From Lachnospiraceae bacterium MD329 (lineage in GTDB: Bacteria > Bacillota > Clostridia > UBA1381), in contig VIQV01000001.1 of the NCBI GenBank assembly GCA_010206265.1, forward strand, positions 186,001-250,000: 64,000 nt of DNA, given 5' to 3'. This document shows positions 1,034 through 40,260 of the stretch, piece after piece (within the stretch, counting starts at the first letter, position 1; every line of letters starts with the position of its first letter). The position numbers and the translations under genes are program-made. The notes beneath the pieces were generated by a model. The model was not told the DNA's origin and did no database searches. It saw nothing but the letters and a program-made list of their open reading frames with translations.

Positions 1034-1345
1034 TTACCCTTGGATTTTATCTACTCTATCTAAAATTGCTTTCGCAAAATTGTCGTCATTTACTGATACG
1101 GCTGAACGGCTTTCCGCTCCCGTATACTTCCCCAGTTCCGCTTTATCAAATGCGGTAATATATCTGACTTTATAATACTCACACGAATTCACAACTGATT
1201 TTTTCGTATTATCCGAAGCGTCCTCCGCAATAATAACCAGTTTTGATATTCCGCTTTTGACTGCTTTTTTACATAAATCCTCGCCTGTTGTTACCTTGCC
1301 TGCGCGTTTTGCCAATCCGAGAAGTCCGAGAAAATTATTTTTCAC
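1034..1345 (-). CDS. ylxQ: YlxQ, L7Ae-family K-turn RNA-binding protein
   Basis: This 103-residue protein is of the L7Ae/L30e/YbxF superfamily, which binds kink-turn RNA. The conserved N-terminus FLGLLGLAKRAGKVTTGED and the KLVIIAEDASDNTKK strand-helix are typical. It starts at a GTG whose bases overlap the rnpM stop (GTGA, 4 nt), with a GGAGG upstream, so the two genes are translationally coupled. It lies between rnpM and infB, the standard place of ylxQ. Its precise role is unsettled in the literature. The presence of OLE RNA in the same window is of interest, because one OLE partner (OapC) belongs to this superfamily. The operon position argues that this copy is ordinary YlxQ. Confidence 0.92.
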   Translation of the reverse strand: MKNNFLGLLGLAKRAGKVTTGEDLCKKAVKSGISKLVIIAEDASDNTKKSVVNSCEYYKVRYITAFDKAELGKYTGAESRSAVSVNDDNFAKAILDRVDKIQG

Positions 1346-26728: not shown

Positions 26729-27172
26729 TTACACGTGACGTATTATCGCAATGATAATTCCCAGTACCGCTCCTGCAAAAACCTCTATAGGCGTATGTCC
26801 CAAAAGTTCTTTCAGTTTTCTGTTGGTATGCGAATAATCCGCCTTAATTAAGTCTTTAACAATCCTGTTAAGTATAGTCGCCTGCTGACCTGCCGCACGC
26901 CGCACACCAGCCGCATCATACATAACCACAAACGAAAAAACTGCCGCCACTGCAAAAACCGCGCTGTCAAAGCCCTCCGTAAATCCTACCGCAAAACTCA
27001 GCGCCATTACAAATGCCGCGTGCGAACTCGGCATACCGCCCGAACCCACTATTCTTTTAAAATCAAATCTGCTGTCCCACGAAAAAACAATTTTAAGCAC
27101 CTGCGCCGCGCACCAGCCAATCAATGCGGTAATAAAGACTGAATTTAATATGAATTGCTGTAAATATATCAT
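26729..27172 (-). CDS. YuiD-type divergent PAP2 family membrane protein
   Basis: This 147-residue multi-spanning membrane protein is of the DUF212/YuiD family, related to PAP2 phosphatases. Motifs: GWCAAQVLKIVF, GSGGMPSSHAAFVMALS (the PSSH phosphatase-like motif), MYDAAGVRRAAGQQA, and LGHTPIEVFAGAVLG. It is often found beside ispA and dxs genes, and a role in dephosphorylating isoprenoid phosphates is plausible but unproven. It is the last gene of the nusB-to-yuiD operon, 9 nt after ispA. Confidence 0.9.
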   Translation of the reverse strand: MIYLQQFILNSVFITALIGWCAAQVLKIVFSWDSRFDFKRIVGSGGMPSSHAAFVMALSFAVGFTEGFDSAVFAVAAVFSFVVMYDAAGVRRAAGQQATILNRIVKDLIKADYSHTNRKLKELLGHTPIEVFAGAVLGIIIAIIRHV

Positions 27173-27181
27173 CTGATATTT

Positions 27182-28057
27182 TTAACTCCTTCTGTCTGTC
27201 AAATAATCTGTAAACTGTTTTAAAAAATCTGCTTTACTGCCGAATATGTCAAGCGACTTTTTAGCTGAATCCGAATATTCCTCCGCAAGCTCCTTTGATT
27301 TTTCAAGACCTGTCAAACTTACATATGTGTTTTTATTCTCCTCTGCGTCCGAGCCTATCGGTTTCCCAAGTTCTTCCTCAGTACCGGTAACATCAAGAAT
27401 ATCGTCCTGTATCTGAAAGGCTATGCCGAGATTTTGCGCGAACTTGTCAACTGCCTTTATTTCTTCTTCCGACGCACCTGACATAACCGCGCCTATAACA
27501 CACGCACTGCGTATTATCGCGCCTGTTTTATTAAGATGAAGATATCTTAATTCATCAAGCGTTATAGTTTTTCCTTCACTCAGAATATCTACAATCTGAC
27601 CTCCAATCATACCTTCCGTACCTGACGATACTGAAAGGATATTAATTGCTTTCATTGCGCGGTCAGTCTGCTTTCCTGTATAGCTCGAAACAACTTCAAA
27701 CGCTTTATTCAAAAGCGCGTCACCTGCCAGAATTGCCGTCGCCTCACCGAATTTTTTATGACTTGTCGGTATTCCTCTGCGTAAATCATCATTATCCATA
27801 GCAGGCAAATCATCGTGTATAAGAGAATAAGTGTGTATCATTTCCAACGCGCACGCAAACGGTATTACTTCATCTATATCTCCGCCGCACATTTTACACA
27901 CGTTAAGCATTAAAATCGGACGTAAACGCTTGCCGCCTGCAAACACGCTGTAACGCATTGCGTCATATATTATACTTTGCGGATTGTCCTTTTTTTCAAG
28001 GTATTTGCCGAGATGTTCGTCAATAAGGTCAATCTGTTCTTTTAACATTTCTTTCAT
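27182..28057 (-). CDS. ispA: Polyprenyl (farnesyl/geranylgeranyl) diphosphate synthase
   Basis: This is a 291-residue trans-prenyltransferase that condenses IPP with allylic diphosphates. The first Asp-rich motif is DDLPAMDNDDLRRG (about 84-97) and the second is QDDILD (about 219-224). GGKRLRP and GQIVDI are also typical. The length fits the short FPP synthases that lie after xseAB in Firmicutes. The ATG follows GAGGAATAAAACA. Products would feed undecaprenyl phosphate synthesis, linked to dxs and ispE on the other side of the OLE locus. Confidence 0.95.
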   Translation of the reverse strand: MKEMLKEQIDLIDEHLGKYLEKKDNPQSIIYDAMRYSVFAGGKRLRPILMLNVCKMCGGDIDEVIPFACALEMIHTYSLIHDDLPAMDNDDLRRGIPTSHKKFGEATAILAGDALLNKAFEVVSSYTGKQTDRAMKAINILSVSSGTEGMIGGQIVDILSEGKTITLDELRYLHLNKTGAIIRSACVIGAVMSGASEEEIKAVDKFAQNLGIAFQIQDDILDVTGTEEELGKPIGSDAEENKNTYVSLTGLEKSKELAEEYSDSAKKSLDIFGSKADFLKQFTDYLTDRRS

Positions 28058-28061
28058 TGTT

Positions 28062-28283
28062 TTATTCCTCTGCCGTAAAATCTTCTTTTACCATTTCTCC
28101 GTCATCATTAGCCATCAGCACCGATACTCTTTTTTCAGCGCTGTCAAGCATTTTCTGACAGCTTTTCGACAGCTTGATTCCCTGCTCAAACAATTCCAGC
28201 GATTCATCAAGAGTAACGTCGCCGTCTTCAAGCTTTGCCACTATTGTCTCAAGCTCCGTAATCGATTGTTCAAATGTTTTCAT
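28062..28283 (-). CDS. xseB: Exodeoxyribonuclease VII small subunit
   Basis: This 73-residue XseB protein has the family core FEQSITELETIVAKLEDGDVTLDESLELFEQGIKL. It forms a complex with XseA. The ATG at 28281-28283 follows AAGGAGATTACATT. An in-frame start 33 bases upstream has no ribosome site. It lies between xseA and ispA. Confidence 0.95.
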   Translation of the reverse strand: MKTFEQSITELETIVAKLEDGDVTLDESLELFEQGIKLSKSCQKMLDSAEKRVSVLMANDDGEMVKEDFTAEE

Positions 28284-28297
28284 AATGTAATCTCCTT

Positions 28298-29479
28298 TCA
28301 GCCCTTGACTATACAATCCGCACTGCCGTCTTTCATTCTCAGAGTAAATTCCGTACCGCTCTTCATTTCATTTGCGCTCCGTATGACAGCGCCGTCCTCG
28401 GTTGTCGGTATTGAATAACCTCTTGCAAGCGTTTGCAGAGGACTTAAAGCGTCCAGCTTTGCAGCAGCCGACGAAAGCTCACGTTTTAAATGCATTGTTT
28501 TCATTTTAAGACTTGAATCCATTGATTTCATCAGCCCGTCAAGCCGCAGATTAGCGTCATCAATCCTATCCTTCGGCGTTCTCATTTTAAAACGCTCCAA
28601 AAGCAGTCTGTTTCCTTCTATGCGTCCCGCTATATTACGGGAAATACGATTTTTGTCAGTGTCTATTCTGTTACGGAGTTCAATCACCGACGGCACTGCA
28701 ATTTCCGCCGCCGCCGAAGGTGTAGGCGCTCTTAAGTCAGCGACAAAATCAGCAATTGTGAAATCAGTTTCGTGCCCCACTGCCGAAATCACGGGTATCT
28801 TCGACGCATAAATCGCGCGCGCCGTAATTTCCTCGTTAAAAGCCCATAAATCCTCTATACTTCCGCCGCCGCGCCCGACAATAAGCGTATCTGCCCCGTC
28901 TGTCGCGTTAAAATACTCTATCGCCTTAACCACACTTTCTGCCGCGCCCGTACCCTGAACCTGCGCCGGATAAAGTACAATCTCCGCCATAGGATAACGG
29001 CGCGTTATTACATTTATAATATCACGTACCGCCGCGCCCGTAGACGCTGTTACCACCCCTACTCTATCGGGGAACGGCGGAATCGGTTTTTTATGTTCAG
29101 GTGAAAAAAGCCCTTCAGATTCAAGCTGTTTTTTTAACTGTTCATAGGCAATATACAGCTCTCCAACGCCGTCGGGAATCATTTCTTCAATATACAGCTG
29201 ATATGACCCGCCTGCCTCATACACGCTTATTCTGCCTCTTGCAAGCACTTTCATACCGTCATTAGGTTCAAATGCAAGTGACTGAGCGCTGCCGCGGAAC
29301 ATAACAGCTTTTAAAACCGCTCCTTCATCTTTTAAGGTAATATACAGATGTCCCGAATAATGGTGCTTGAAATTAGATATTTCTCCCTTTATCCAAACAT
29401 TATTCAGTATTATATTATGGTCAAGAATTTTTTTTACATAGTTGTTTATCTGTGAAACTGTAGCTACCTTTGCCTCCAA
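28298..29479 (-). CDS. xseA: Exodeoxyribonuclease VII large subunit
   Basis: This 393-residue protein has an N-terminal OB fold (VSQINNYVKKILDHN, WIKGEISNFKHHYSGHLYITLKD) and the catalytic exonuclease VII domain. Family motifs are VGVVTASTGAAVRDI, VGRGGGSIEDLWAFNEE, VISAVGHETDFTIADFVADLRAPTPSAAAE and a C-terminal ALSPLQTLARGYS. The enzyme degrades single-stranded DNA. It starts at TTG with AAGGAGG 7 nt upstream. It lies 2 nt after the tsaD-like gene. Confidence 0.96.
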   Translation of the reverse strand: MEAKVATVSQINNYVKKILDHNIILNNVWIKGEISNFKHHYSGHLYITLKDEGAVLKAVMFRGSAQSLAFEPNDGMKVLARGRISVYEAGGSYQLYIEEMIPDGVGELYIAYEQLKKQLESEGLFSPEHKKPIPPFPDRVGVVTASTGAAVRDIINVITRRYPMAEIVLYPAQVQGTGAAESVVKAIEYFNATDGADTLIVGRGGGSIEDLWAFNEEITARAIYASKIPVISAVGHETDFTIADFVADLRAPTPSAAAEIAVPSVIELRNRIDTDKNRISRNIAGRIEGNRLLLERFKMRTPKDRIDDANLRLDGLMKSMDSSLKMKTMHLKRELSSAAAKLDALSPLQTLARGYSIPTTEDGAVIRSANEMKSGTEFTLRMKDGSADCIVKG

Positions 29480-29481
29480 AT

Positions 29482-30414
29482 TTAAGCCTCCTTATGCGCT
29501 AACCGCGCCAAATATGCTATTCCAACGGCATTATCAGACGCGTATTCTTTCTTTGCAAAGTACACATCTCCGTCAAGCTCCGCAGTAAGCCCTGCGCGTA
29601 TAATACTGTTTGACGCAACTCCGCCTGCAATAAGTATACGTCGAATCCCTGTTTCTTTTACTGCACTGTTTATAGTTTTAACAAGCGTATCACGTACATT
29701 TTCCAGAACTCCAAGCGCCAGAGCCTTGCTGTCCGCTTCTTCTGCCATACGCATTGCCTTTGTTTCCGCGCCCGAAAAATTCATATATGAGCCGTCTGTC
29801 GATACAGTCAGTTTTTCTGCCTTGTCTGCCTCAGAGGCAAGCTTTTCAAGCGACACTCCTGCAGGAAACTGCAAGCCAATTTTTACGCCCACTCTGTCAA
29901 TAAGCTGTCCTGCGCTTATATCGCGCGTACCGCCTATAATCTCATTTATAAAATTACAATCTCCGTAACGGCTTTTTAAAATCTCAGTAGTACCGCCCGA
30001 CAAATGTACTGAAATAAAATCGCCGTCCAGCAGTTCATATCCTCCGCAGGAGGCAATACCTGCCATAATATGACCGTCCTGATGTGAAAATTTATAAAGC
30101 GGTATGCCAAGCGTTCTGCTTACAACCTCCGCATAGCCTTCACCTGCCAGAAACACGGGCATATACGAACCTTCTATATTACGCGGACGAGTGCTTACTC
30201 CAACCGCTTTTACACCGCCTATATCAATTTCGTCCAAAAGAAGTTTATAAATTTGCGGTACAAGTTTCATATGCTGAAAAACTCCGTCGCTCTGACGTAT
30301 TCCTCGCTCTCCCTGTTTTACAAACAGAAGTCGGCGTACATTTTTATCACTTACTCCGTCAGTCCAAGCTACAGACGCAGTATAATTACTTGTATCAAAT
30401 CCTATAGCGCTCAT
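29482..30414 (-). CDS. TsaD/Kae1-like protein (second TsaD-type paralogue of Clostridia)
   Basis: This 310-residue ASKHA-fold protein resembles TsaD, the t6A synthesis enzyme. It has the metal-binding H-x3-H (SHQDGH, about 115-120), LSGGTTEI and RILIAGGVASNSIIRAGL. It is shorter and more divergent than housekeeping TsaD. Copies at this place between nusB and xseA are known in Clostridia under the old name O-sialoglycoprotein endopeptidase, and their role is not established. The start overlaps the nusB stop by 4 nt (ATGA). Confidence 0.85.
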   Translation of the reverse strand: MSAIGFDTSNYTASVAWTDGVSDKNVRRLLFVKQGERGIRQSDGVFQHMKLVPQIYKLLLDEIDIGGVKAVGVSTRPRNIEGSYMPVFLAGEGYAEVVSRTLGIPLYKFSHQDGHIMAGIASCGGYELLDGDFISVHLSGGTTEILKSRYGDCNFINEIIGGTRDISAGQLIDRVGVKIGLQFPAGVSLEKLASEADKAEKLTVSTDGSYMNFSGAETKAMRMAEEADSKALALGVLENVRDTLVKTINSAVKETGIRRILIAGGVASNSIIRAGLTAELDGDVYFAKKEYASDNAVGIAYLARLAHKEA

Positions 30415-30824
30415 ACCGTTTCTTTATAAACACTTGCCAAAAGACCGTTTACAAAATGCGGGTCATCATCGCATCCGTATCGTTTAGCCAGCTCTACCGC
30501 TTCATTTATCGCAACTTTGTGCGGAACGTCATCACGGTATTTCATCTCGAATATAGCCAGCTTTAAAATTGTAAGCGACGCTTTTGATATTCTTGAAAGT
30601 TTCCATCCTGATTTCAGATTTCTCTCTATGATTTTCTCTATTTCTTCGCCGTACTGCGCCACACCGTCCACAATACTGCTTATATAACCAAGATTTGTTT
30701 CACATTCGGGACGTGCCTTTAAAAGCTCGTCCATAATCATATCCATATCGTCGGTATGCAGGTCCATTTGAAACACCACTGTAAATGCAGCGTCGCGTGC
30801 CTCACTTCTTGTTTGCTTTCTCAT
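30411..30824 (-). CDS. nusB: Transcription antitermination protein NusB
   Basis: This 137-residue NusB binds boxA RNA with S10 in rRNA antitermination. It is all-helical with the family motifs RSEARDAAFTVVFQMD, LSRISKASLTILKLAIFEM, VPHKVAINEAVELAKRYG and FVNGLLASVYKE. It is the first gene of the leftward operon that continues with the tsaD-like gene, xseA, xseB, ispA and yuiD. It faces the OLE RNA region, 173 nt away. Confidence 0.96.
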   Translation of the reverse strand: MRKQTRSEARDAAFTVVFQMDLHTDDMDMIMDELLKARPECETNLGYISSIVDGVAQYGEEIEKIIERNLKSGWKLSRISKASLTILKLAIFEMKYRDDVPHKVAINEAVELAKRYGCDDDPHFVNGLLASVYKETV

Positions 30825-30961
30825 AGTTTAGCATTAACTTCCTTTCATAATTCACAGCATAATTTTCCATATTAAAATTGTATCATAGTTAAATGAAAAA
30901 ATCAAGGTTTGATATTGTAATATGAATTGTTGTTTATGCCATAAAACTATAATTTCTCTGT

Positions 30962-30990
30962 TTGACTTTTTATTGAAAATATGATATATT
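30962..30990 (+). promoter_or_regulatory. Probable sigma-A promoter for OLE RNA
   Basis: TTGACT (30962-30967), 17 nt and TATATT (30985-30990) would start RNA at about 30997-31000, right where the structured sequence begins. Other TATAAT-like boxes overlap downstream (30990-30995; 30998-31003). Confidence 0.65.
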
Positions 30991-30997
30991 ATAATAA

Positions 30998-31622
30998 TAT
31001 AATAGTGGTGCAGTATCCTAGTCAGTACGGCTTTTCGGAAAGCGGGCCTAAAAATCCGCCAAATGGCACATCGATGAAGTTTCTGGTGTTTTGCTTTGAA
31101 CGCCCAGTTCGGGGCTGATGCTGGGAGTTAAGGTTTAGGGGCGGTTTCTAACGGCATAGAAACGCTAACCCCTTTTCCGTGGAGGCCTGTGACTGTGGCG
31201 GTCCATACCCCCTAAGGGAGCAAATCGTTACGGCACAGGGGAAAACCTGTTTCGCGGTTAGTAATCCGCTCTCTCACAAGGATAGCGGTATGAATGCTGT
31301 GGGCAGCGTAGCCAGCCTTGAGTGGATATGGCGGATACGCGATAAAAAAGCTGTTTCGCCGTTTCGGCCAAAACGGCTTACGGCAAATGCGTGTTGAAAC
31401 CATATTTGCAAAAGAGGATACGATAAGCTCTGGCTGTTTGGGAAAACCTCTAGGCTGTCTTATCTAAGGATGGACAGGGGATTGCAGTGCGGACTAAGTG
31501 GCAATTCGGCAACGATCAAACGTGTGAGTCTTTAATGGGAAACCGCTTTTTCGGCGACGATTAAGCAGACTTTCGGGAAATCCTGCTGAACCTAAGCCGC
31601 AAACTTTACCCTGTTCATTACC
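30998..31622 (+). ncRNA. ole: OLE RNA (ornate, large, extremophilic RNA)
   Basis: About 620 bases contain no plausible gene but are dense in hairpins. Visible stems include CCCAG 31103-31107/CTGGG 31121-31125, GTTTCTA 31144-31150/TAGAAAC 31157-31163, ACAGG 31235-31239/CCTGT 31246-31250, CCGCT 31266-31270/AGCGG 31284-31288, and GCCGTTT 31358-31364/AAACGGC 31371-31377. G+C is clearly higher than in the flanking intergenic DNA. Three things identify OLE RNA: length near 600 nt, an OapA-type membrane protein gene directly downstream, and the nusB/xseA/xseB/ispA/dxs/tlyA neighbourhood known for OLE loci. OLE RNA forms a membrane-bound complex with OapA and other proteins. In Bacillus halodurans it is tied to alcohol, cold and magnesium stress. 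Ends are estimated from the promoter and the oapA ribosome site. Confidence 0.87.
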
Positions 31623-31655
31623 CTATTATACATATATTTAAAGGAGAGAATGTAC

Positions 31656-32258
31656 TTGGACAAATCCGACATACCGCGAAAAAAGAAATTTAACATACCA
31701 AGACCCGATTCAAATGTATCCACTTCGCACAAGTGGACAGTTATCGTTACGCTGCTTTCATTCATTCTGTCAGTATTTTTCAGCTTTCTGACCTCGGTTG
31801 CAATGAAATCGCTTACGGTATTTTTCGCTTTTATTCTGCTCTTGGTTATAATCGCAGTAAATATTATATTTGATATGGTCGGCACCGCCGTACAGTCGGC
31901 GGAAGAAAAACCGTTCCATTCACTCGCCGCAAGAAGAGTGGCGGGTGCAAGAGAAAGCATTTCCGTAATTCGTCACGCACCTCAGCTCGCTAATATGTGC
32001 TGTGACGTTATAGGCGATATTGCAGGTATCATTTCAGGTGCGACAACGGCGCTTATCGTTGCCGAACTCGTTCAAATGTTCCAGCTTAAAGGTATGCTCC
32101 CCAGTCTTATTCTGACAGGGCTTGTCGGCGCGCTCACAATCGGCGGCAAAGCAATGTCAAAGGGGATTTCAATGCAGAACGGTAACTACATTGTATTTAT
32201 TGTCGGCAGACTGATGTACTTTTTTAAACATATCAGCTTACGCCGTAAAAAAAAGTGA
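31656..32258 (+). CDS. oapA: OLE-associated membrane protein OapA
   Basis: OapA binds OLE RNA and holds it at the membrane. The protein of about 200 residues has a basic N-terminus (about 15 residues with RKKK), two close transmembrane helices (about 30-50 and 55-75), a basic loop with AARRVAGARES, and two further hydrophobic segments (about 118-142 and 150-168). A basic RRKKK end follows. A D-x3-D pair lies in CCDVIGDIAG. From memory, an Asp pair of that spacing matters in the Bacillus protein. I prefer the TTG at 31656 (9 nt after GGAG) to the ATG at 31650, which is only 3 nt after it. The gene begins about 30 nt after the OLE RNA and is followed at 10 nt by dxs. Confidence 0.85.
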   Translation: MDKSDIPRKKKFNIPRPDSNVSTSHKWTVIVTLLSFILSVFFSFLTSVAMKSLTVFFAFILLLVIIAVNIIFDMVGTAVQSAEEKPFHSLAARRVAGARESISVIRHAPQLANMCCDVIGDIAGIISGATTALIVAELVQMFQLKGMLPSLILTGLVGALTIGGKAMSKGISMQNGNYIVFIVGRLMYFFKHISLRRKKK

Positions 32259-32268
32259 GGATACGGTG

Positions 32269-34107
32269 ATGAAAAAACTTTTAGACACGATAAACTCACC
32301 AGATGATTTGAAAAAACTTAATATAGACGAATTATCCGTGCTATGCGCGGAAATACGCGAATTTCTGATTGACAGTGTATCAAAAACAGGCGGACACCTC
32401 GCCTCCAATCTCGGAGTTGTTGAGCTGACCGTTGCTTTGCACACTGTTTTTGACGTTCCGAGAGATAAAATTGTCTTTGACGTAGGGCACCAGTCGTATG
32501 TACATAAAATACTGACAGGCAGACGCGATAACTTCAATACACTCCGTCAGTTCGGCGGAATGTCGGGCTTTCCGAAATCAAGCGAAAGTGACGCTGACGC
32601 ATTTAATACAGGACACAGCTCAACCTCGATTTCAGCCGCGCTCGGACTTGCCCGCGCGCGTGACCTTGACGGCGGCAGTTACAGCGTTATATCTGTTTTC
32701 GGCGACGGCGCACTTACGGGCGGTATGATGTATGAGGCGATGAACGACGCCGGACATACAAAAACACCGCTTATCCTTATACTTAACGATAACGAAATGT
32801 CAATTTCCAAGAATGTCGGAGCAGTGTCAAAACATTTGCGTACACTGCGGACATCATCTGTATATTTCCGTTCAAAGTACATAATAGAACGATTTTTAAA
32901 GAAGATACCGCTTTGCGGCAATGCTATTGTAAATATTATAAAGCATATTAAGCGTGGGTTCAGACGTCTGGTTATACCAACCACACTGTTTGACGATATG
33001 GGCTTTCGATATATGGGACCTGTTGACGGTCACGATTTAAAATCGCTTATCGGCTGTTTTGAATATGTGCGCGGCGAAAGCCGTCCCGTACTTATTCACG
33101 TGCAGACAAAAAAGGGAAAGGGTTACGCCCCTGCTGAGAGCAATCCGCAGAAATTCCACGGCATTTCGTCCTTCGACAAGGCTACGGGCGAAACAAAAAA
33201 AAGCGCTGAGAGCTACAGCGCGCGTTTTGGTTCTGTAATGCTGCGTCTTGCGGAAAGCAACAAAAAACTGGTTGCAATAACAGGCGCAATGCCGAACGGA
33301 ACAGGTCTTGACGAGTTTATGAAACAGTTTAAAAAACGTTTCTTTGACGTAGGAATTGCCGAACAGCACGGGGTTACCTTCGCCGCAGGACTTGCCAAGG
33401 CTGGATATGTTCCTGTAATACCGCTGTACTCATCATTTTTACAGCGCGCATACGACCAGACCCTGCACGACGTCTGTCTGCAAAATCTGCATGTCGTATT
33501 CCCCATTGACCGCGCAGGAATAGTTGGCGCGGACGGTGAAACACATCAGGGCATTTACGATATTTCCTACCTGTCGCATATGCCGAATATGACAATTCTT
33601 TCACCCGCAACGCTCGACCAGCTTGAAACAATGCTTGATTTTGCGGTTAATAAATTCAATGCGCCGATTGCTATCCGCTATCCGCGCGGCAGTGTGCAGA
33701 CAGAAGGAATACCTCCTGAATTTACTCTGGGTAAAGCTCAGCTTTTACAGAGCGGCAATGATATAACCATAATTGCCACGGGCAGAATGGTTCGACGCGC
33801 ACAGGAAATCGCATCTCTTCTCGGACGCTCGGCAGAAATAATTTCACTGCCTACGATTAAACCGCTCGACGAGGCGGCAGTTATTTCCTCGGCAATGAAA
33901 ACAGGGAACGTAATAACAATAGAAGATAACGTCAAATCAGGCGGTATGGGAAGTATGATTGGTACATTGTTAAAAGAGAAGCAAATAGACTGTGCCTTCA
34001 AAATTTTTGCTTTCCCTGACACACCAATCACACACGGAACTGTCGATGAGCTTGACAAGCTTTACGGACTTGACGCAGTCACTATCGTTTCAAAGATAAG
34101 GAGTTAA
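32269..34107 (+). CDS. dxs: 1-deoxy-D-xylulose-5-phosphate synthase
   Basis: Dxs condenses pyruvate and glyceraldehyde 3-phosphate with thiamine diphosphate, the first step of the MEP isoprenoid pathway. The 612 residues show GGHLASNLGVVELTVALH, DVGHQSYVHKILTGRR, the ThDP motif GDGALTGGMMYEAMN..LILNDN, GPVDGHD, VGIAEQHGVTFAAGLA and the C-terminal transketolase domain (ITIEDNVKSGGMGS). The ATG at 32269 is preceded by GAGG at good spacing; a GTG lies directly before it. It is co-directional with oapA, tlyA and ispE. Confidence 0.97.
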   Translation: MKKLLDTINSPDDLKKLNIDELSVLCAEIREFLIDSVSKTGGHLASNLGVVELTVALHTVFDVPRDKIVFDVGHQSYVHKILTGRRDNFNTLRQFGGMSGFPKSSESDADAFNTGHSSTSISAALGLARARDLDGGSYSVISVFGDGALTGGMMYEAMNDAGHTKTPLILILNDNEMSISKNVGAVSKHLRTLRTSSVYFRSKYIIERFLKKIPLCGNAIVNIIKHIKRGFRRLVIPTTLFDDMGFRYMGPVDGHDLKSLIGCFEYVRGESRPVLIHVQTKKGKGYAPAESNPQKFHGISSFDKATGETKKSAESYSARFGSVMLRLAESNKKLVAITGAMPNGTGLDEFMKQFKKRFFDVGIAEQHGVTFAAGLAKAGYVPVIPLYSSFLQRAYDQTLHDVCLQNLHVVFPIDRAGIVGADGETHQGIYDISYLSHMPNMTILSPATLDQLETMLDFAVNKFNAPIAIRYPRGSVQTEGIPPEFTLGKAQLLQSGNDITIIATGRMVRRAQEIASLLGRSAEIISLPTIKPLDEAAVISSAMKTGNVITIEDNVKSGGMGSMIGTLLKEKQIDCAFKIFAFPDTPITHGTVDELDKLYGLDAVTIVSKIRS

Positions 34108-34108
34108 T

Positions 34109-34912
34109 ATGGCTAAAATAAGACTTGACGCTCTGCTTGTGAAGAACGGTCTTGCTCAGAGCAGAGAAAGAGCTAAGGCAATTATAATGGCAGGGCAGGT
34201 TTATATTGATAACCAGAAATGCGACAAAGCAGGACTTATGGTTGACGAGGATACAGCAACACCTGAAGTCCGCGGTGAAACTTTAAAATATGTCAGCCGC
34301 GGCGGTTTAAAGCTCGAAAAAGCTATGCAGGAGTTTCCCATTACTCTTTCGGATAAAACAACAATGGATATAGGGGCATCTACAGGCGGTTTTACCGACT
34401 GCATGCTGCAAAACGGCGCAAAAAAAGTGTTTGCCGTTGACGTTGGTTACGGTCAGTTCGCTTGGAAACTTCGTCAGGACGAAAGAGTGGTAAATATGGA
34501 GCGGACTAATATACGCTATGTTACCCCTGACGACATTGGCGAACCGATTGACTTTGCCTCTATTGACGTATCATTTATTTCTTTAAGGCTTGTACTTCCC
34601 GTTGCAAAAGAGCTTTTAGCTGATAACGGGGAGATAGTTGCGCTTATAAAGCCTCAGTTCGAGGCAGGGCGCGAGCAAGTCGGAAAAAAAGGCGTGGTAA
34701 AGGATATAAAGGTACATTTTGAGGTTATAAAAACAGTTCTTGACTTTGCCCGTGAAACAGGCTTTTTTGTTGCAGGACTGTCATTTTCACCGATAAAAGG
34801 TCCCGAAGGCAATATTGAATATCTGGCATATTTAAAGAAAACAGAGTGCAAGGACATAATCACCGACGAGGTTATTAAATCAGTCGTTGACAGTTCGCAT
34901 AATACGCTTTAA
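34109..34912 (+). CDS. tlyA: TlyA/YqxC family rRNA 2'-O-methyltransferase
   Basis: A 267-residue protein combines an N-terminal S4 RNA-binding domain (RLDALLVKNGLAQSRERAKAIIMAGQVYID) with an FtsJ-like SAM methyltransferase domain. The latter shows MDIGASTGGFTDCML, VFAVDVGYGQFAWKLR and IALIKPQFEAGREQVGKKG. TlyA methylates riboses in 16S and 23S rRNA in actinobacteria. The Firmicute homologue YqxC is always near dxs and is presumed similar. It starts 1 nt after dxs. Confidence 0.94.
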   Translation: MAKIRLDALLVKNGLAQSRERAKAIIMAGQVYIDNQKCDKAGLMVDEDTATPEVRGETLKYVSRGGLKLEKAMQEFPITLSDKTTMDIGASTGGFTDCMLQNGAKKVFAVDVGYGQFAWKLRQDERVVNMERTNIRYVTPDDIGEPIDFASIDVSFISLRLVLPVAKELLADNGEIVALIKPQFEAGREQVGKKGVVKDIKVHFEVIKTVLDFARETGFFVAGLSFSPIKGPEGNIEYLAYLKKTECKDIITDEVIKSVVDSSHNTL

Positions 34913-34925
34913 GGAGAACAAATCT

Positions 34926-35810
34926 ATGCTTGCCAAAGATACTGTTATAACAGGCAGACGCGCTATATCGCGTTCCTACGCAAAAATAAATCTTACTCTT
35001 GACGTGCTTTCAAAGCGCGCCGACGGCTACCACGACATAAAAATGATAATGCAGACCGTATCGCTGTTTGACCTTATACTTGTTGATAGAATACGCGACC
35101 GACGAATCTCAATTGCAACCAATCTGCGTTATCTTCCTAACAATGATAAAAACATCGCATATAAAGCCGCTGACGCATTTCTGAATAAAACAGGTCTTGA
35201 CGGCGGAGTTAAAATAATGATACATAAAAACATACCGGTAGCGGCAGGTCTTGCAGGCGGCAGCGGCAACTGCGCCGCCGTACTGACGGCAATTAATATG
35301 CTGTACGGTAACGCGCTTTCAGACCAAGAACTAAAAACACTCGGTGCGTCGCTTGGTGCCGATGTCCCCTACTGTTTTAACGGCGGTACACAAATAGCGG
35401 AAGGAATAGGCGAAAAACTCACGCGTTTAACCGCAATACCTGACGCATACATACTTCTTGTAAAACCTCCGATAAATGTTTCAACCGCGTCAATTTATGA
35501 ACAGATTGACAGCGCCCCTATTAGTGTAAGACCTGACACAAAGGCAATGGAACAGGCTCTTTGCGAAAACAATATACATGGAGTTGCAGATAATCTCTGC
35601 AATGTTATGGAATCGGTAACTGAAAAAATGTACCCCATAATAGGCGGTATTAAACATAAGATGATGTTAAACGGCGCACTCGGCGCAATTATGAGCGGTT
35701 CGGGTCCGACAGTGTTCGGAATTTTCGACGACTACAAAACCGCAAAAGCAAGTGCAGACAGCTTTTCTCTGCAGTTTAAGGACGTATTTTTAACACAAAC
35801 AAAGAATTGA
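34926..35810 (+). CDS. ispE: 4-diphosphocytidyl-2-C-methyl-D-erythritol kinase
   Basis: This is the GHMP-family kinase of the MEP pathway (294 residues). Motifs are SYAKINLTLDVLSKRADGYHDI, the ATP loop PVAAGLAGGSGNCAAVL, LGADVPYCFNGGT and MSGSGPTVFGIF. The ATG at 34926 follows AAGGAGAACAAATCT. The ribosome site sits at the tlyA stop. It places a second MEP gene in the OLE/oapA/dxs operon. Confidence 0.96.
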   Translation: MLAKDTVITGRRAISRSYAKINLTLDVLSKRADGYHDIKMIMQTVSLFDLILVDRIRDRRISIATNLRYLPNNDKNIAYKAADAFLNKTGLDGGVKIMIHKNIPVAAGLAGGSGNCAAVLTAINMLYGNALSDQELKTLGASLGADVPYCFNGGTQIAEGIGEKLTRLTAIPDAYILLVKPPINVSTASIYEQIDSAPISVRPDTKAMEQALCENNIHGVADNLCNVMESVTEKMYPIIGGIKHKMMLNGALGAIMSGSGPTVFGIFDDYKTAKASADSFSLQFKDVFLTQTKN

Positions 35811-35820
35811 GGTGCTTTCC

Positions 35821-36462
35821 TTGGAAAAGGATAAAGACGTTATAAACGTCATAACCAACGGTTACAGCAAAAAAGAACGCATATACATAGCATTATCTGC
35901 CGCAGCAGTTATAACCATTGCTGCGCTAGCTTTCTTTGCAGGTTTTTTTCTTCCCAAACCGATTGGAGCGGTAAATATCAGCCTTAATGCCTATGAAAAA
36001 AAAGACGGTGCATATCTTGACGCACTTGACGCATACACTGCCTCAGAAAAAGAGATTGAAAAACTCAACACAAATCTCGGCAGTACAGCTCAGGAACTTG
36101 AAGAATTTAATCAATCGCGTGACAGCATTGATAAGATAACCCAGAAAAACAACGAACTTGAAACTCAAAAGGAGCAACTGCAAAACGAGATAAATTCAAA
36201 ACGCGCCGTACTTGACACGCTTGACGGCAAAACGTCAGCCTCTTCAAGTTCCGCGCTTACTTTGACATCCGGACGATACACAGTAGGAGAAAATCTGACG
36301 GCAGGCAGTTATACAATAACAGGGACAGGCAGTATTGTCATTTCAAATTCAGGCACAGCGCGAGTTAATAAATCGCTCAAATCCGACGGTGAAAAATTCA
36401 CACTCAGTGAAGGTGATATTTTAAGAATTGACGGCAGCGCCAAGCTTATAAAGGAGGAGTAA
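35821..36462 (+). CDS. Membrane-anchored coiled-coil protein with C-terminal beta domain, function unknown
   Basis: There is a short cytoplasmic N-terminus, one transmembrane helix (about 25-45, a run rich in Ala, Ile and Phe), a coiled coil (about 75-135), an Ala/Ser linker and a C-terminal beta-rich module. The module has the pattern SGRYTVGENLTAGSYTITG, then GTARVNKSL, then FTLSEGDILRIDGSAKL. Modules reading 'Y.VG.DL.AG.Y.I' recur in extracellular proteins of Firmicutes, but I know no biochemical function. I choose TTG at 35821, 7 nt after TGAGGT; a GTG at 35812 is an alternative. The next gene is its paralogue. Confidence 0.7.
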   Translation: MEKDKDVINVITNGYSKKERIYIALSAAAVITIAALAFFAGFFLPKPIGAVNISLNAYEKKDGAYLDALDAYTASEKEIEKLNTNLGSTAQELEEFNQSRDSIDKITQKNNELETQKEQLQNEINSKRAVLDTLDGKTSASSSSALTLTSGRYTVGENLTAGSYTITGTGSIVISNSGTARVNKSLKSDGEKFTLSEGDILRIDGSAKLIKEE

Positions 36463-36463
36463 C

Positions 36464-37075
36464 GTGAACCGCAAAAAAATATATATAACAATACTTGCCT
36501 CAGTTACGGCGGCAGCGTCAATAATATCTTTTACTACGGGTTTTTGCGTAGATACCTCCATTCGAGCCAAAGACAGACTGCGTACTGAAATTTCCTCACT
36601 TGAAAAAAGACGCGCTAACCTTGACGAAAAAAAAGAGGAATTAAGTACAAAGCTTTTGGAGCTTGAAACAGAGTTAAGCTCAAAGGACACTGTAAACAAC
36701 TATTATATGGAATATCAGAAAACCCACGACCAGCTCACTGCTGACATCACAGAACTTCAAAAGCAGAGCAGTGCTCTTGATGAAGAAATCACAAAAAAAG
36801 AGGCGGAGGCAGAAAAAGCAGGACGAATTAAAGGAACAATAAGAGGCAAAACATATTCAATAACAAAGGACGAAATGTACATCTGCCCCGACAAAATCCC
36901 GTCAGGACGATATATTGTTACCGGACGCGGAACAGTCGTGATTTACGGCACAAACGGTAAAACACGCGCGGCTGAAAACCTTGATGTTTCCTATAATAAT
37001 TCCTACACCTTTGATTTAAAAGATAAAGAAAAATTCAAAGTCAGCGAAAATGCCTCGCTTACAGAACTGAAATAA
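36464..37075 (+). CDS. Paralogous membrane coiled-coil protein, function unknown
   Basis: A 203-residue protein has the same plan as the preceding one. It has a transmembrane helix at about 8-28, a long coiled coil (about 35-125) and a C-terminal beta module (MYICPDKIPSGRYIVTG, GTVVIYGTNGK, FDLKDKEKFKVSENASLTEL). It starts at GTG, 1 nt after the previous stop, with GGAGGAG overlapping that stop. It ends the oapA-dxs-tlyA-ispE operon, closed by a terminator. The pair may scaffold something at the envelope, but nothing in the sequence names the partner. Confidence 0.7.
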   Translation: MNRKKIYITILASVTAAASIISFTTGFCVDTSIRAKDRLRTEISSLEKRRANLDEKKEELSTKLLELETELSSKDTVNNYYMEYQKTHDQLTADITELQKQSSALDEEITKKEAEAEKAGRIKGTIRGKTYSITKDEMYICPDKIPSGRYIVTGRGTVVIYGTNGKTRAAENLDVSYNNSYTFDLKDKEKFKVSENASLTELK

Positions 37076-37154: not shown

Positions 37155-38624
37155 TTATTTTAAGTTTATATCAATAGCGTTATCATAATCAAGCTCAAAA
37201 TCATAATAGCCTATTCCCAGATGTGTAAATGTCTTTTCAAGATTTTCCTTGCTGATAGTGCTCATATCAAACGGTACTTTATTTCCGTTTTGGTCATATT
37301 CTCCGTCATACGCATATTTAGCAGTATATGAGTTCGTATCGTGATGTACTGTTGTAGTTAATAGACACCCAAGCTTTCCACCCGGCTCTACAATGTTGCC
37401 GTCCTTATCCATTGTATGGAAATTCGGGTCCCACAATGAAAAACCATCTTTATAGTAGTCAATCTCAAATGCACCGTCCGAAAAACGTATATTCGTTACA
37501 ACAACACTGCCGTAAGCGCTGGTCTTAAAGGTCATTGGATATGTTCCTATCTGCTGAGTTGCTGTTTTCTCCTCGTTATAGGTCATCGAGCCCATAACGG
37601 GAACAATTTTAAGCGCCTTGGTGTTTGCGTCTGCTTTTAAGATTTCTATTTTATTTATACTCTCAACATCTACTCTGCCGCCTGACATATCAGTGTTAAG
37701 AACATCAAGGCTCTGTCCGTTTTCATCAAATATAGCGCTGCCGCTTATTTTCATTCCTGCATTACCCTGACACCTATCCTTAACAACAAGCTGACTTCCG
37801 AAAGGTGAGAATACAACTTTTGAGATTTCTCCCTCTCCCTGTCTTTCTACAGGCGACGCATTACCGTCCTCGTCATAAACTTCATCATAATAAGTAAACG
37901 GGAACTTCTTATTTACATTCTTGACAACACTCTTTGTTTCAACGCTTGTCTTTTTAGCTATAGTTGAAATATATAAGAGCTTTTCTTTGTCAGCGTCCGT
38001 CAAAACGGTGTCGTCATTATAGAGATAATCTCCCTCAAAGTTGCTTTCTTCTTTCAGGATAGCAGGTTCGCTGTACATTTCCAAAGTGAATGTATCGGGA
38101 ACTTCCATATCGGCAACATTCAGCTTTATAACACCCTTATAACTGCCGTCCTCCGTGGAATATGCGTTCTCTGTATTGTTATTGCCGAAATTTGCCAGCT
38201 TGCCGTTTATACGGCAAAGAAACCACAAATTATAGTAATCGTTTTCAGTCATAGACGAATCATCCTTTTTCAGCGTATAGAAAACGTGCATAAAGTTATC
38301 GTCTGTCGCTATATTGTCAAGTGTCAGCGTATAACCAAAATTCGATACTGTCACACCAACCTCTTCATTATATTCCGCCAGAGCTTCCATACTTGTAATA
38401 TCAATCGCCTTATCCGACTGGAAGTACGAAATAACACTGCCTGCCGCAAAGGCGGTGCTTATGCCGATTACCGCTACACACGCAGCAACTGACATAATAC
38501 CTTTCAGACTTCGTTTGGTAGACTTTTTCATTGAATTGTCCTCCATTCTATCTATTATCCTATTTTTAAGAGCATCGTCAGGTTCAATTCTTGAGAACAT
38601 TTTCTCTAAATCCTCTCTATGCAT
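37155..38624 (-). CDS. DUF4179-type anti-sigma factor-like membrane protein
   Basis: This 489-residue protein has a short cytoplasmic N-terminus (MHREDLEKMFSRIEPDDALKNRI) that resembles anti-sigma domains. One transmembrane helix follows (about 42-60), then a DUF4179 region (about 65-160) and a long beta-rich extracellular part. It overlaps the upstream ECF sigma gene by 8 nt. This arrangement strongly suggests that it holds the sigma factor at the membrane. The extracellular ligand or stress is unknown. I see no HRxxN zinc motif. Confidence 0.85.
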   Translation of the reverse strand: MHREDLEKMFSRIEPDDALKNRIIDRMEDNSMKKSTKRSLKGIMSVAACVAVIGISTAFAAGSVISYFQSDKAIDITSMEALAEYNEEVGVTVSNFGYTLTLDNIATDDNFMHVFYTLKKDDSSMTENDYYNLWFLCRINGKLANFGNNNTENAYSTEDGSYKGVIKLNVADMEVPDTFTLEMYSEPAILKEESNFEGDYLYNDDTVLTDADKEKLLYISTIAKKTSVETKSVVKNVNKKFPFTYYDEVYDEDGNASPVERQGEGEISKVVFSPFGSQLVVKDRCQGNAGMKISGSAIFDENGQSLDVLNTDMSGGRVDVESINKIEILKADANTKALKIVPVMGSMTYNEEKTATQQIGTYPMTFKTSAYGSVVVTNIRFSDGAFEIDYYKDGFSLWDPNFHTMDKDGNIVEPGGKLGCLLTTTVHHDTNSYTAKYAYDGEYDQNGNKVPFDMSTISKENLEKTFTHLGIGYYDFELDYDNAIDINLK

Positions 38625-39105
38625 AGAAATAACCTCCTTCTGTTAAAATGTCCTTCAGCTTTTTGCGTCCGCGAGCCAGTCTTGACAGCACTGCAGAAAG
38701 AGAAACCTTCATCATATCTGCAATTTCCTGTGCCTTGTAGCCTTCATAATAGTGCATATACAGCACAACCCTGTATTTCGGCGGAAGTTGTAATAATTCC
38801 TCCATAACGCTCTCCTCCTCAGGTGTAGCCATATACATCAGCACGTCCTCGTCTTTAACCACATTTCTGTGCCAACTTGACTTCAGCAGGTTTTTGCTTA
38901 TATTAACCGCTGTCTGTATAAGATACGCCCTTGTATGGGCGTCATTCTCAAATGCCGGATTTGCCTGCATTATCCGTATAAACGTTTCTGTCACCGCCTC
39001 TTCGGCATCGTCCTTGTTCTTCAGATACATAAGGCATATTCCGTATACTGACTTCGCGTGTTTTTCATACATATCAGAAAAATATTGCTTTTCAGTGTCG
39101 GTCAT
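38617..39105 (-). CDS. ECF-type RNA polymerase sigma factor
   Basis: This 162-residue sigma-70 family protein has region 2 (YEKHAKSVYGICLMYLKNKDDAEEAVTETFIRIMQ) and region 4 (LLQLPPKYRVVLYMHYYEGYKAQEIADMMKVSLSAVLSRLARGRKKLKDIL). Regions 1 and 3 are missing, as expected for ECF factors. The stop overlaps the DUF4179 gene by 8 nt, so the two are made together. ECF factors of this type usually transcribe their own operon in response to an envelope or surface signal. Confidence 0.93.
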   Translation of the reverse strand: MTDTEKQYFSDMYEKHAKSVYGICLMYLKNKDDAEEAVTETFIRIMQANPAFENDAHTRAYLIQTAVNISKNLLKSSWHRNVVKDEDVLMYMATPEEESVMEELLQLPPKYRVVLYMHYYEGYKAQEIADMMKVSLSAVLSRLARGRKKLKDILTEGGYFYA

Positions 39106-39236: not shown

Positions 39237-40043
39237 TTATTTTTTAATCTTAATTATGTATTCTGTACCCCAGTCAAAGGCATTTTCCGAAAGCTCCGCG
39301 TCAATACCGCTTTTTGCCATCATATTAATAGCCCGTTTAACCGTATTATGAAATACTTTTACATCCTTCGCCTTTGTAACACGCACCTCGTCAATCGGCT
39401 GTTTCGGCTTGTTAGCCTTCATACTGCGTACAAGCTCCTCTGTCTGCGTAACTCCTAAATTATCACGGCAGACTATTTTAACCGCTTCAAGCTGCTTGTC
39501 CTCGTCAGGCAAAAGCAGCAGCGCACGCGCGTGTCTTTCGGTTAAGTCATAATCACGTATAAGCTTTTTAACAAGCGGCGGCAATCTTAACAGGCGTATT
39601 TTATTTGCCACAGACGCCTGACTTTTGCCCACCTTCAGCGCAAGTTCTGTCTGTGTCATACCCTGCTCACGGATAAGACTTTTATAGCTTTCCGCAATTT
39701 CAAAAAATGATAAATCTTCACGCTGCAAATTCTCCAATAATGCCAGAATTGCAGACTTATCATTATCAGCCTCAATAACAACCGCAGGAATAGTTTCAAG
39801 ACCTGCCATCTGCGCCGCGCGGAATCTGCGTTCACCTGCTATAAGCTCATATTCGCCGTTCCTGCGTCGTACCGTAATCGGCTGAATAAGTCCATATTCC
39901 AGTATTGAACTTTTAAGCTCCTCCATTGCCGCGGGGTCAAAATAACTGCGCGGCTGATTCGGATTAGGCGCTATCATATATAACGGCAGTGATATTATCT
40001 GCGGTTTTTCATTCTGTATTTTTTTCTTTATAATATGTATCAT
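39237..40043 (-). CDS. noc: Nucleoid occlusion protein Noc (ParB family)
   Basis: This 268-residue ParB-family CTP-binding DNA clamp has the N-terminal CTPase domain (NPNQPRSYFDPAAMEELKSSI, GLIQPITVRRRNGEYELIAGERRFRAA, LENLQREDLSFFEIAESY). An HTH follows (MTQTELALKVGKSQASVANKIRLLRLP), then LTERHARALLLLPDED and a C-terminal dimerisation part. Its place right after rsmG and the lack of a parA gene fit Noc better than ParB, though the two cannot be separated by sequence alone. The ATG at 40041-40043 follows AGGAG by 7 nt. The ~180-nt leader is unusually structured. Confidence 0.85.
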   Translation of the reverse strand: MIHIIKKKIQNEKPQIISLPLYMIAPNPNQPRSYFDPAAMEELKSSILEYGLIQPITVRRRNGEYELIAGERRFRAAQMAGLETIPAVVIEADNDKSAILALLENLQREDLSFFEIAESYKSLIREQGMTQTELALKVGKSQASVANKIRLLRLPPLVKKLIRDYDLTERHARALLLLPDEDKQLEAVKIVCRDNLGVTQTEELVRSMKANKPKQPIDEVRVTKAKDVKVFHNTVKRAINMMAKSGIDAELSENAFDWGTEYIIKIKK

Positions 40044-40226
40044 TGCGTTTCTCCTGTAAAAAAGAGTAAGCAGCGATAATGTAAGTACCTGATGAAAACA
40101 CAATGATGAATTTACATTATCGCCATTTACCCTCGGTGGTGGAAGGTGTAAGACAATTTGGGGGTAGACAGGGCCTTGGGGAAACCCTGTTTGAAATGTA
40201 CCTTTCTGATACTGTTCTGTCTTACA
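40044..40226 (-). ncRNA. Structured leader RNA before noc, candidate attenuator
   Basis: On the minus strand the RNA should begin near 40226. TGTAAGACA (40226-40218) pairs perfectly with TGTCTTACA (40155-40147) and encloses ACAGGG/CCCTGT (40190-40185 with 40173-40168). Further on, GCGATAATGTAA (40123-40112) and TTACATTATCGC (40084-40073) are a perfect 12-bp stem followed by ACTCTTTTTT, then the noc AGGAG. The 5' AATGTAAG can also pair with CTTACATT of the last stem, so two folds exclude each other. I do not recognise this as a known riboswitch or 6S RNA. No coding sequence is seen here. Confidence 0.6.
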
Positions 40227-40232
40227 TTTACT

Positions 40233-40260
40233 ATTATAGCATATTTTTTCCATTTTTCAA
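40233..40260 (-). promoter_or_regulatory. Sigma-A promoter for noc and its leader
   Basis: On the minus strand there is TTGAAA (40255-40260), 16 nt and TATAAT (40233-40238). The predicted start is at the foot of the first leader stem. Confidence 0.7.

Follow-up and report, generated by a model that had tools for sequence, protein, structure and literature searches.

The 64-kb window analyzed here, that is, the whole stretch of 64,000 nucleotides, comes from an uncultured lineage of Clostridia and almost certainly harbors a full-length, intact OLE RNA-OapA locus, whose putative partners, dimer and stress role are set out below. We observed membership in the OLE family, a conserved promoter, a conserved gene order, partner-protein genes elsewhere in the genome, and, at the tip of P9, self-complementarity that persists through changes in sequence. 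A cmscan search matched 652 nt of the plus strand to the Rfam OLE family (RF01071) with 454.6 bits (E 1.7e-131), against a gathering score of 50 bits, covering the model end to end (1-616). An earlier sequence-only reading of this DNA had proposed a structured RNA of the OLE family here and had recommended this covariance-model search, the outcome of which bears out the proposal; its overall reading of an OLE RNA-OapA locus is supported by the same match together with the published marks of OapA in the adjacent protein. OLE is the sole Rfam match above gathering in the window, a weak match to TCL6_1 (E 0.95) having been set aside as chance, and it is single-copy in the host genome (G000; 2.74 Mb in 86 contigs). 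Both the model match and the invariance of the RNA across the host and 39 relatives (Table 1) far exceed chance. The locus is an ordinary, well-supported member of an already known and well-surveyed family of large, elaborately folded bacterial RNAs that act with a membrane protein during stress, for which a published survey gives 2,822 OLE genomes (PMC11332333). What it adds to that family, and what we consider worth passing on, is a series of P9 palindromes and of apparently rebuilt P13 hairpins in close relatives.

Table 1. Features of the OLE locus and its surroundings (window positions, except for the loci named in the last row).
Feature	Position	Strand	Basis or remark
Divergent cluster nusB, TsaD-like, xseA, xseB, ispA, DUF212	26729..30824	-	NCBIfam, Pfam
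OLE promoter	30962..30990	+	-35 TTGACT 30962-30967; TG 30982-30983; -10 TATATT 30985-30990
OLE RNA (ole gene)	30989..31640	+	RF01071 match; 225/652 positions invariant in 40 aligned RNAs
P4 hairpin, A-rich loop, published dimer contact	31042..31059	+	cmscan alignment; CTAAAAA invariant 40/40
P9 region between conserved anchors	31317..31411	+	GGCC tip 31366-31369, published kissing-loop contact L9.3 (PMC12286853)
Hairpin A, taken as P13 (OapB site): shortened, no GNRA loop	31511..31523	+	
Hairpin B, taken as P14/P15: GGCGAC tip	31553..31558	+	
oapA, OapA-type membrane protein, 200 aa, TTG start	31656..32258	+	RBS AAAGGAG 31640-31646
dxs	32266-34107	+	NCBIfam
tlyA	34109-34912	+	NCBIfam
ispE	34887-35810	+	NCBIfam; downstream block spans 32266..35810
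Loci with tipless P9	L172, L188, L217, L220, L238, L243, L246		in G146, G095, G363, G353, G120, G299, G369, respectively

OLE was found in 44 of 61 genomes comprising the host and 60 relatives, and a set of 391 genomes sampled from the class yielded 158 positives. Forty of the 44 RNAs in the first set were aligned, the other four (G016, G019, G052 and G060) being present as fragments only; 13 of the 158 class positives were already in the relatives set and 130 of the remaining 145 were aligned, giving 170 OLE RNAs altogether. The 15 class matches left out were mostly low-scoring or cut, and eight of them came without an OapB match. OLE occurs in pieces at G052:C27:4563-5117, at G016:C50 and C36, at G019:C213 and at G060:C94, and the three pieces that stand in a row on one contig of G052 may represent a broken or diverged OLE gene. 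The named relatives are MAGs whose labels read Oscillospiraceae, Clostridia or Bacillota; the host lineage itself is uncultured, and the record titles of some relatives suggest that it lives in animal guts.

The window RNA shares with the OLE RNAs of Halalkalibacterium halodurans and Clostridium its match to the full model, an oapA gene directly downstream, the P4 loop and the GGCC of P9, and the host likewise encodes OapB, OapC and bS21. It differs from them in that hairpin A, which we take as P13, has no GNRA loop, and in that nusB-xseA-xseB-ispA run divergently from OLE. Relative to the RF01071 model, one arm, taken as P8, holds 37 nt instead of 6. The alignment places both dimer-contact sequences in the window, the palindromic P9 tip and the A-rich P4 loop, the latter bearing the name and the dimer-contact role that a review of OLE assigns to it (PMC12265935).

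Upstream of the RNA lies a promoter of the form TTGACT-17-TATATT with a TG ahead of the -10 (extended -10), from which transcription would start at about 30997. The sequence-only reading had given the stretch a promoter of its own and had begun it at 30962, which is the first base of the -35 hexamer. The TG-extended site is the best upstream site in all 23 family members with upstream DNA, under a scoring scheme that gave TG a bonus, and 16 of these 23 promoters match at least 10 of the 12 consensus bases. A search for terminator-like sites across 30700-32400, including the interval between OLE and oapA, found none, which makes co-transcription of the RNA and oapA probable.

The OLE match stops at 31640, leaving 15 nt to the TTG at which we place the start of oapA rather than the 30 nt at first supposed. 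The longest open reading frame begins at an ATG (31650), but the TTG at 31656 is preferred because the corresponding TTG (L-D-K-S) is the first in-frame start in 14 of 15 named relatives, a conservation that upholds the start and the 200-residue length given to the protein by the earlier reading. The traits that it had listed for the protein, basic ends (seven K/R at each), an AARRVAGARES segment and a D-x3-D pair (DVIGD), are all present. Among the 167 longest ORFs downstream of OLE, some of which are not OapA (e.g. in G037), 162 contain some DxxxD and 134 a strict DxxGDxxG-type pattern. Hydropathy analysis delineates one hydrophobic stretch of 61 residues, with room for two helices, and two further hydrophobic stretches.

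In the literature, OapA is marked by a weak homology to CNNM proteins and by DxxxD, a motif absent from CNNM (PMC11332333). The Pfam CNNM model (DUF21, PF01595) matches the window protein at E 0.0021, below its cut-off, and scores 28.6-29.8 bits at the OLE locus of five genomes of the same genus (G005, G008, G009, G011 and G012), against a cut-off of 28.4 bits. Adjacency to OLE, the DxxxD motif and this weak CNNM similarity support the designation of the window protein as a putative OapA-type protein. It had no match in an NCBIfam search, and a profile search of the PDB with an alignment of the window protein and 12 close named relatives returned nothing up to E 1; an AlphaFold model of the same set was poor (pLDDT 56, pTM 0.36). 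The weak CNNM similarity links it to the MpfA/CorB CNNM transporters, from which it differs in its 200 residues, in its DxxxD motif and in having no room for CBS and CorC_HlyC domains.

The order OLE-oapA-dxs holds in all 37 family loci containing OLE (25 genomes besides the host, several of the 37 loci being the same contig counted twice), and tlyA and ispE come next wherever the locus is long enough. All of the neighbors named in the sequence-only reading, nusB, xseA, xseB, ispA, dxs and tlyA, were confirmed by NCBIfam, but the nusB-ispA side is divergent and its adjacency to OLE is not conserved. Because it is divergent, this side does not form one operon with OLE, and a single operon leading from nusB through OLE to tlyA was rejected on the disagreement of strands. 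In 14 other family genomes, each with at least 3.6 kb upstream of OLE, none of nusB, the TsaD-like gene, xseA, xseB, ispA, DUF212 and metK (the last judged by eye) was found upstream of OLE, and nine further family genomes with less or no upstream DNA likewise yielded no match to the upstream genes. Adjacency of nusB, being unconserved in close relatives, was therefore rejected as support for OLE. In one family genome (G014) a single contig carries both nusB and OLE, 43 kb apart, and in another family of the order ispA-DUF212 stand ahead of OLE in the same direction (L002, L004, L005, L007, L009 and L018); the window arrangement would be consistent with an inversion of the ancestral upstream half. 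The junction on the nusB side is known from the host assembly alone, and the juxtaposition of nusB and OLE represents either a rearrangement or an assembly error in the host. The cluster also contains, between nusB and xseA, a TsaD/Kae1-like paralogue (29482-30414, minus strand) that scores 112.6 bits with TIGR00329, for which the cut-off is 207.8.

Standing first in a run of genes that share its direction, and with no terminator-like site found before oapA, the RNA could also act mainly in cis, as a leader regulating oapA-dxs-tlyA-ispE. We hold this to be extremely improbable, given that no dxs was found within 1.5 kb downstream of OLE in several order-level relatives (e.g. L002-L005 and L009) and that OLE is described in print as a stable, abundant, protein-binding RNA (PMC9723947). 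We retain the reading of an OLE RNA-OapA locus, and turn to the parts of the RNA that mediate its contacts.

Cryo-EM has revealed a kissing loop through which two OLE RNAs join at their P9 tips, and switches of the palindrome from GGCC to GAUC or AGCU have been reported (PMC12286853). Among the 170 aligned RNAs, 163 have a full-length P9 tip, and 138 of these tips carry GGCC. Twenty-three of the other 25 carry a different perfect 6-nt palindrome, a count that averaged 4.1 and never exceeded 11 over 2000 shuffles, in which each tip kept its own letters while kinship was not preserved. The two exceptions are G432, which has UGCGCA in a longer stretch, and G329, which has no palindrome. The 25 non-GGCC tips span 11 families, within which relatives are not independent: nine families have a 6-nt palindrome in the tip, a tenth (that of G432) is palindromic only in the longer stretch, and that of G329 has none. 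GCGC cores occur in families f1, f36, f66 and f76, GUAC cores in f1, f49 and f64, AGCU cores in f44 and f74, and GAUC cores in f40 and f47. Within the host genus itself, seven of 15 OLE RNAs carry GGCC and eight a GCGC core, the latter in three contexts (AGCGCU, UGCGCA and GGCGCC). GCGC and GUAC are absent from the switches named in the PMC12286853 passage used for this comparison. As judged from these aligned tips, the P9 dimer contact is conserved as a palindrome and not as a sequence. In seven of the 170 RNAs (Table 1) P9 spans only 43-54 nt between its anchors and has no tip, which shows that the kissing contact does not extend to all OLE RNAs.

The site on OLE that is bound by OapB was reportedly defined by Widner 2020 and Yang 2021. 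On the Rfam structure, a stacked stem, which we take as P12, P12.1 and P12.2, is followed after its third segment by hairpins A and B. Published numbering assigns P1, P2 and P10-P15 to domain 2 of OLE (PMC12265935), and hairpin A should be P13 because it is the first hairpin after the P12 stack in that numbering. Under a loose motif test 136 of the 170 RNAs have a GGNRAC-like tip in hairpin A, and under a stem-supported test 96; the latter proved too strict, as many hairpins are mismatched below the loop, and the loose test was used instead. Within the host family, 21 of 24 aligned RNAs, that of the host included, have no GNRA tip in hairpin A, and their stems are short or rebuilt; a further 13 RNAs outside the family also have no tip. 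In one locus (L237, in G432) the hairpin A region measures 134 nt, versus about 48, pointing to an insertion in the putative OapB site.

Tip and OapB are found together in 128 of the 170 cases, the tip only in eight, OapB only in 32 and neither in two. With OapB kept in 32 of 34 tipless genomes, including all 21 of the host family, this sample shows no coupling between losing the tip and losing OapB; the counts under-represent OapB-less genomes, eight of which were left out, and are not general for OLE. OapB calls for the class genomes were read by eye from a table, and in five loci where an infA-linked pattern missed OapB, a profile found it. This absence of coupling agrees with the literature, in which OapB is credited with other tasks. 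Should hairpin A be P13, then in the host family the docking of OapB on its loop appears to be relaxed or lost.

An alternative, which concerns P13 alone, is that OapB docks on hairpin B, that hairpin A is another stem, and that nothing has been lost. Hairpin B does indeed keep a GGNRAC-type or AGUAAU motif in all 170 RNAs by the loose test, and in 132 of them when a 3-pair stem is demanded. We nevertheless consider this unlikely: with P12, P12.1 and P12.2 taken as one stack, hairpin A becomes P13 when P10-P15 are numbered 5'-3', and the published survey reports one variant class in which the nucleotides that bind OapB, at the P13 end, are frequently absent (PMC11332333), a description that suits the variable hairpin A more than hairpin B. 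Taking hairpin A as P13, the window RNA resembles OLE variant 1, which that survey describes as common in TANB77, in having no putative OapB-binding loop. It differs from variant 1, in which P7-P9 are shortened, in that it matches the whole model, with one arm longer and P9 not truncated. Moreover, TANB77 genomes are said in the same source to lack OapB largely (PMC11332333), whereas the host has it.

Homologs of the known OLE partners are encoded elsewhere in the host genome. The OapB gene (G000:C2, L081 3638-3895) lies just upstream of infA, and its product has a sole PDB match, 7k9b, 'OLE-associated protein B' (E 2.8e-14). The OapC gene (L102 2821-3075) lies upstream of ORFs read by eye as rpsL (S12-like) and rpsG (S7-like); the best PDB match of its product is 3v7e, 'Ribosome-associated protein L7Ae-like' (E 7.5e-10), followed by 4lck, 'Ribosomal protein YbxF', and YbxF is OapC (PMC9723947). 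There is one match to bS21, the site of which, along with the stress phenotypes of OLE, is treated in PMC10898510 and PMC12054373. A second L7Ae-family protein (1034-1345, minus strand) is encoded beside ORFs that by eye resemble YlxR and NusA. This protein is presumably the OapC paralogue YlxQ and possibly a further k-turn binder.

The host also encodes a full-length MpfA-type transporter (416 aa; CNNM E 1.1e-53) with 7m1t, 'Hemolysin, contains CBS domains', as its best PDB match (E 4.5e-58). MpfA has been described as the counterpart of OLE that tends to take its place and is anticorrelated with it (PMC11332333). Among the 61 genomes of the host and its relatives, 38 have OLE only, 16 a strong CNNM match only (>60 bits), one neither, and six, including the host, have both. 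This mutual exclusion (Fisher p 5e-9, kinship not corrected) repeats the published anticorrelation at the scale of a family. Given its full-length MpfA, the OLE locus might matter less in the host. Taken further, the locus might hold an OLE gene in decay that has persisted by chance as MpfA took over, which the intact transporter, the tendency of OLE and strong CNNM matches to exclude each other and the disappearance of the putative P13 loop would allow. We judge such decay highly improbable in view of the 454.6 bits scored across the whole OLE model, of the conservation of both the promoter and the oapA reading frame, and of the fact that the P13 change is common to 21 of the 24 aligned family members, 17 of these 21 having no strong CNNM match.

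By analogy with published work on other species, then, the RNA of this intact OLE RNA-OapA locus would fold like studied OLE RNAs and pair with a second copy through its P4, P5/P6 and P9 loops. CNNM-like OapA would hold it at the membrane, where OLE, with OapC, bS21 and perhaps OapB, may help the host to meet cold, alcohol or metal-ion stress. We further advance, tentatively and as a possibility that we hold open rather than favor, a joint account of the P9 and P13 variation as a lineage-specific self-recognition code. P9 would drift among GGCC, GCGC, GUAC, AGCU and GAUC under selection for self-pairing, homodimers would be needed in cells, and RNAs from different sister species might not pair with one another; docking on P13 would have been given up, with OapB kept for another task. 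Sister species with varied P9 palindromes, with or without MpfA and with apparently rebuilt P13 hairpins, constitute a natural mutation series in which dimerization, OapB docking and the need for OLE beside MpfA can be tested by swapping tips or loops between close relatives.

Beyond the conserved block, two tandem, similar-looking small proteins (35812-36462 and 36464-37075, plus strand) are encoded directly after ispE, each with one hydrophobic segment and a coiled coil and with no Pfam family above cut-off among the 25 matches listed for each. They are followed on the minus strand by a pair of genes (37155-38624 and 38617-39105) whose products by eye resemble an ECF sigma factor and a membrane anti-sigma factor, and by a gene (39237-40253) for what appears, again by eye, to be a ParB-like protein.
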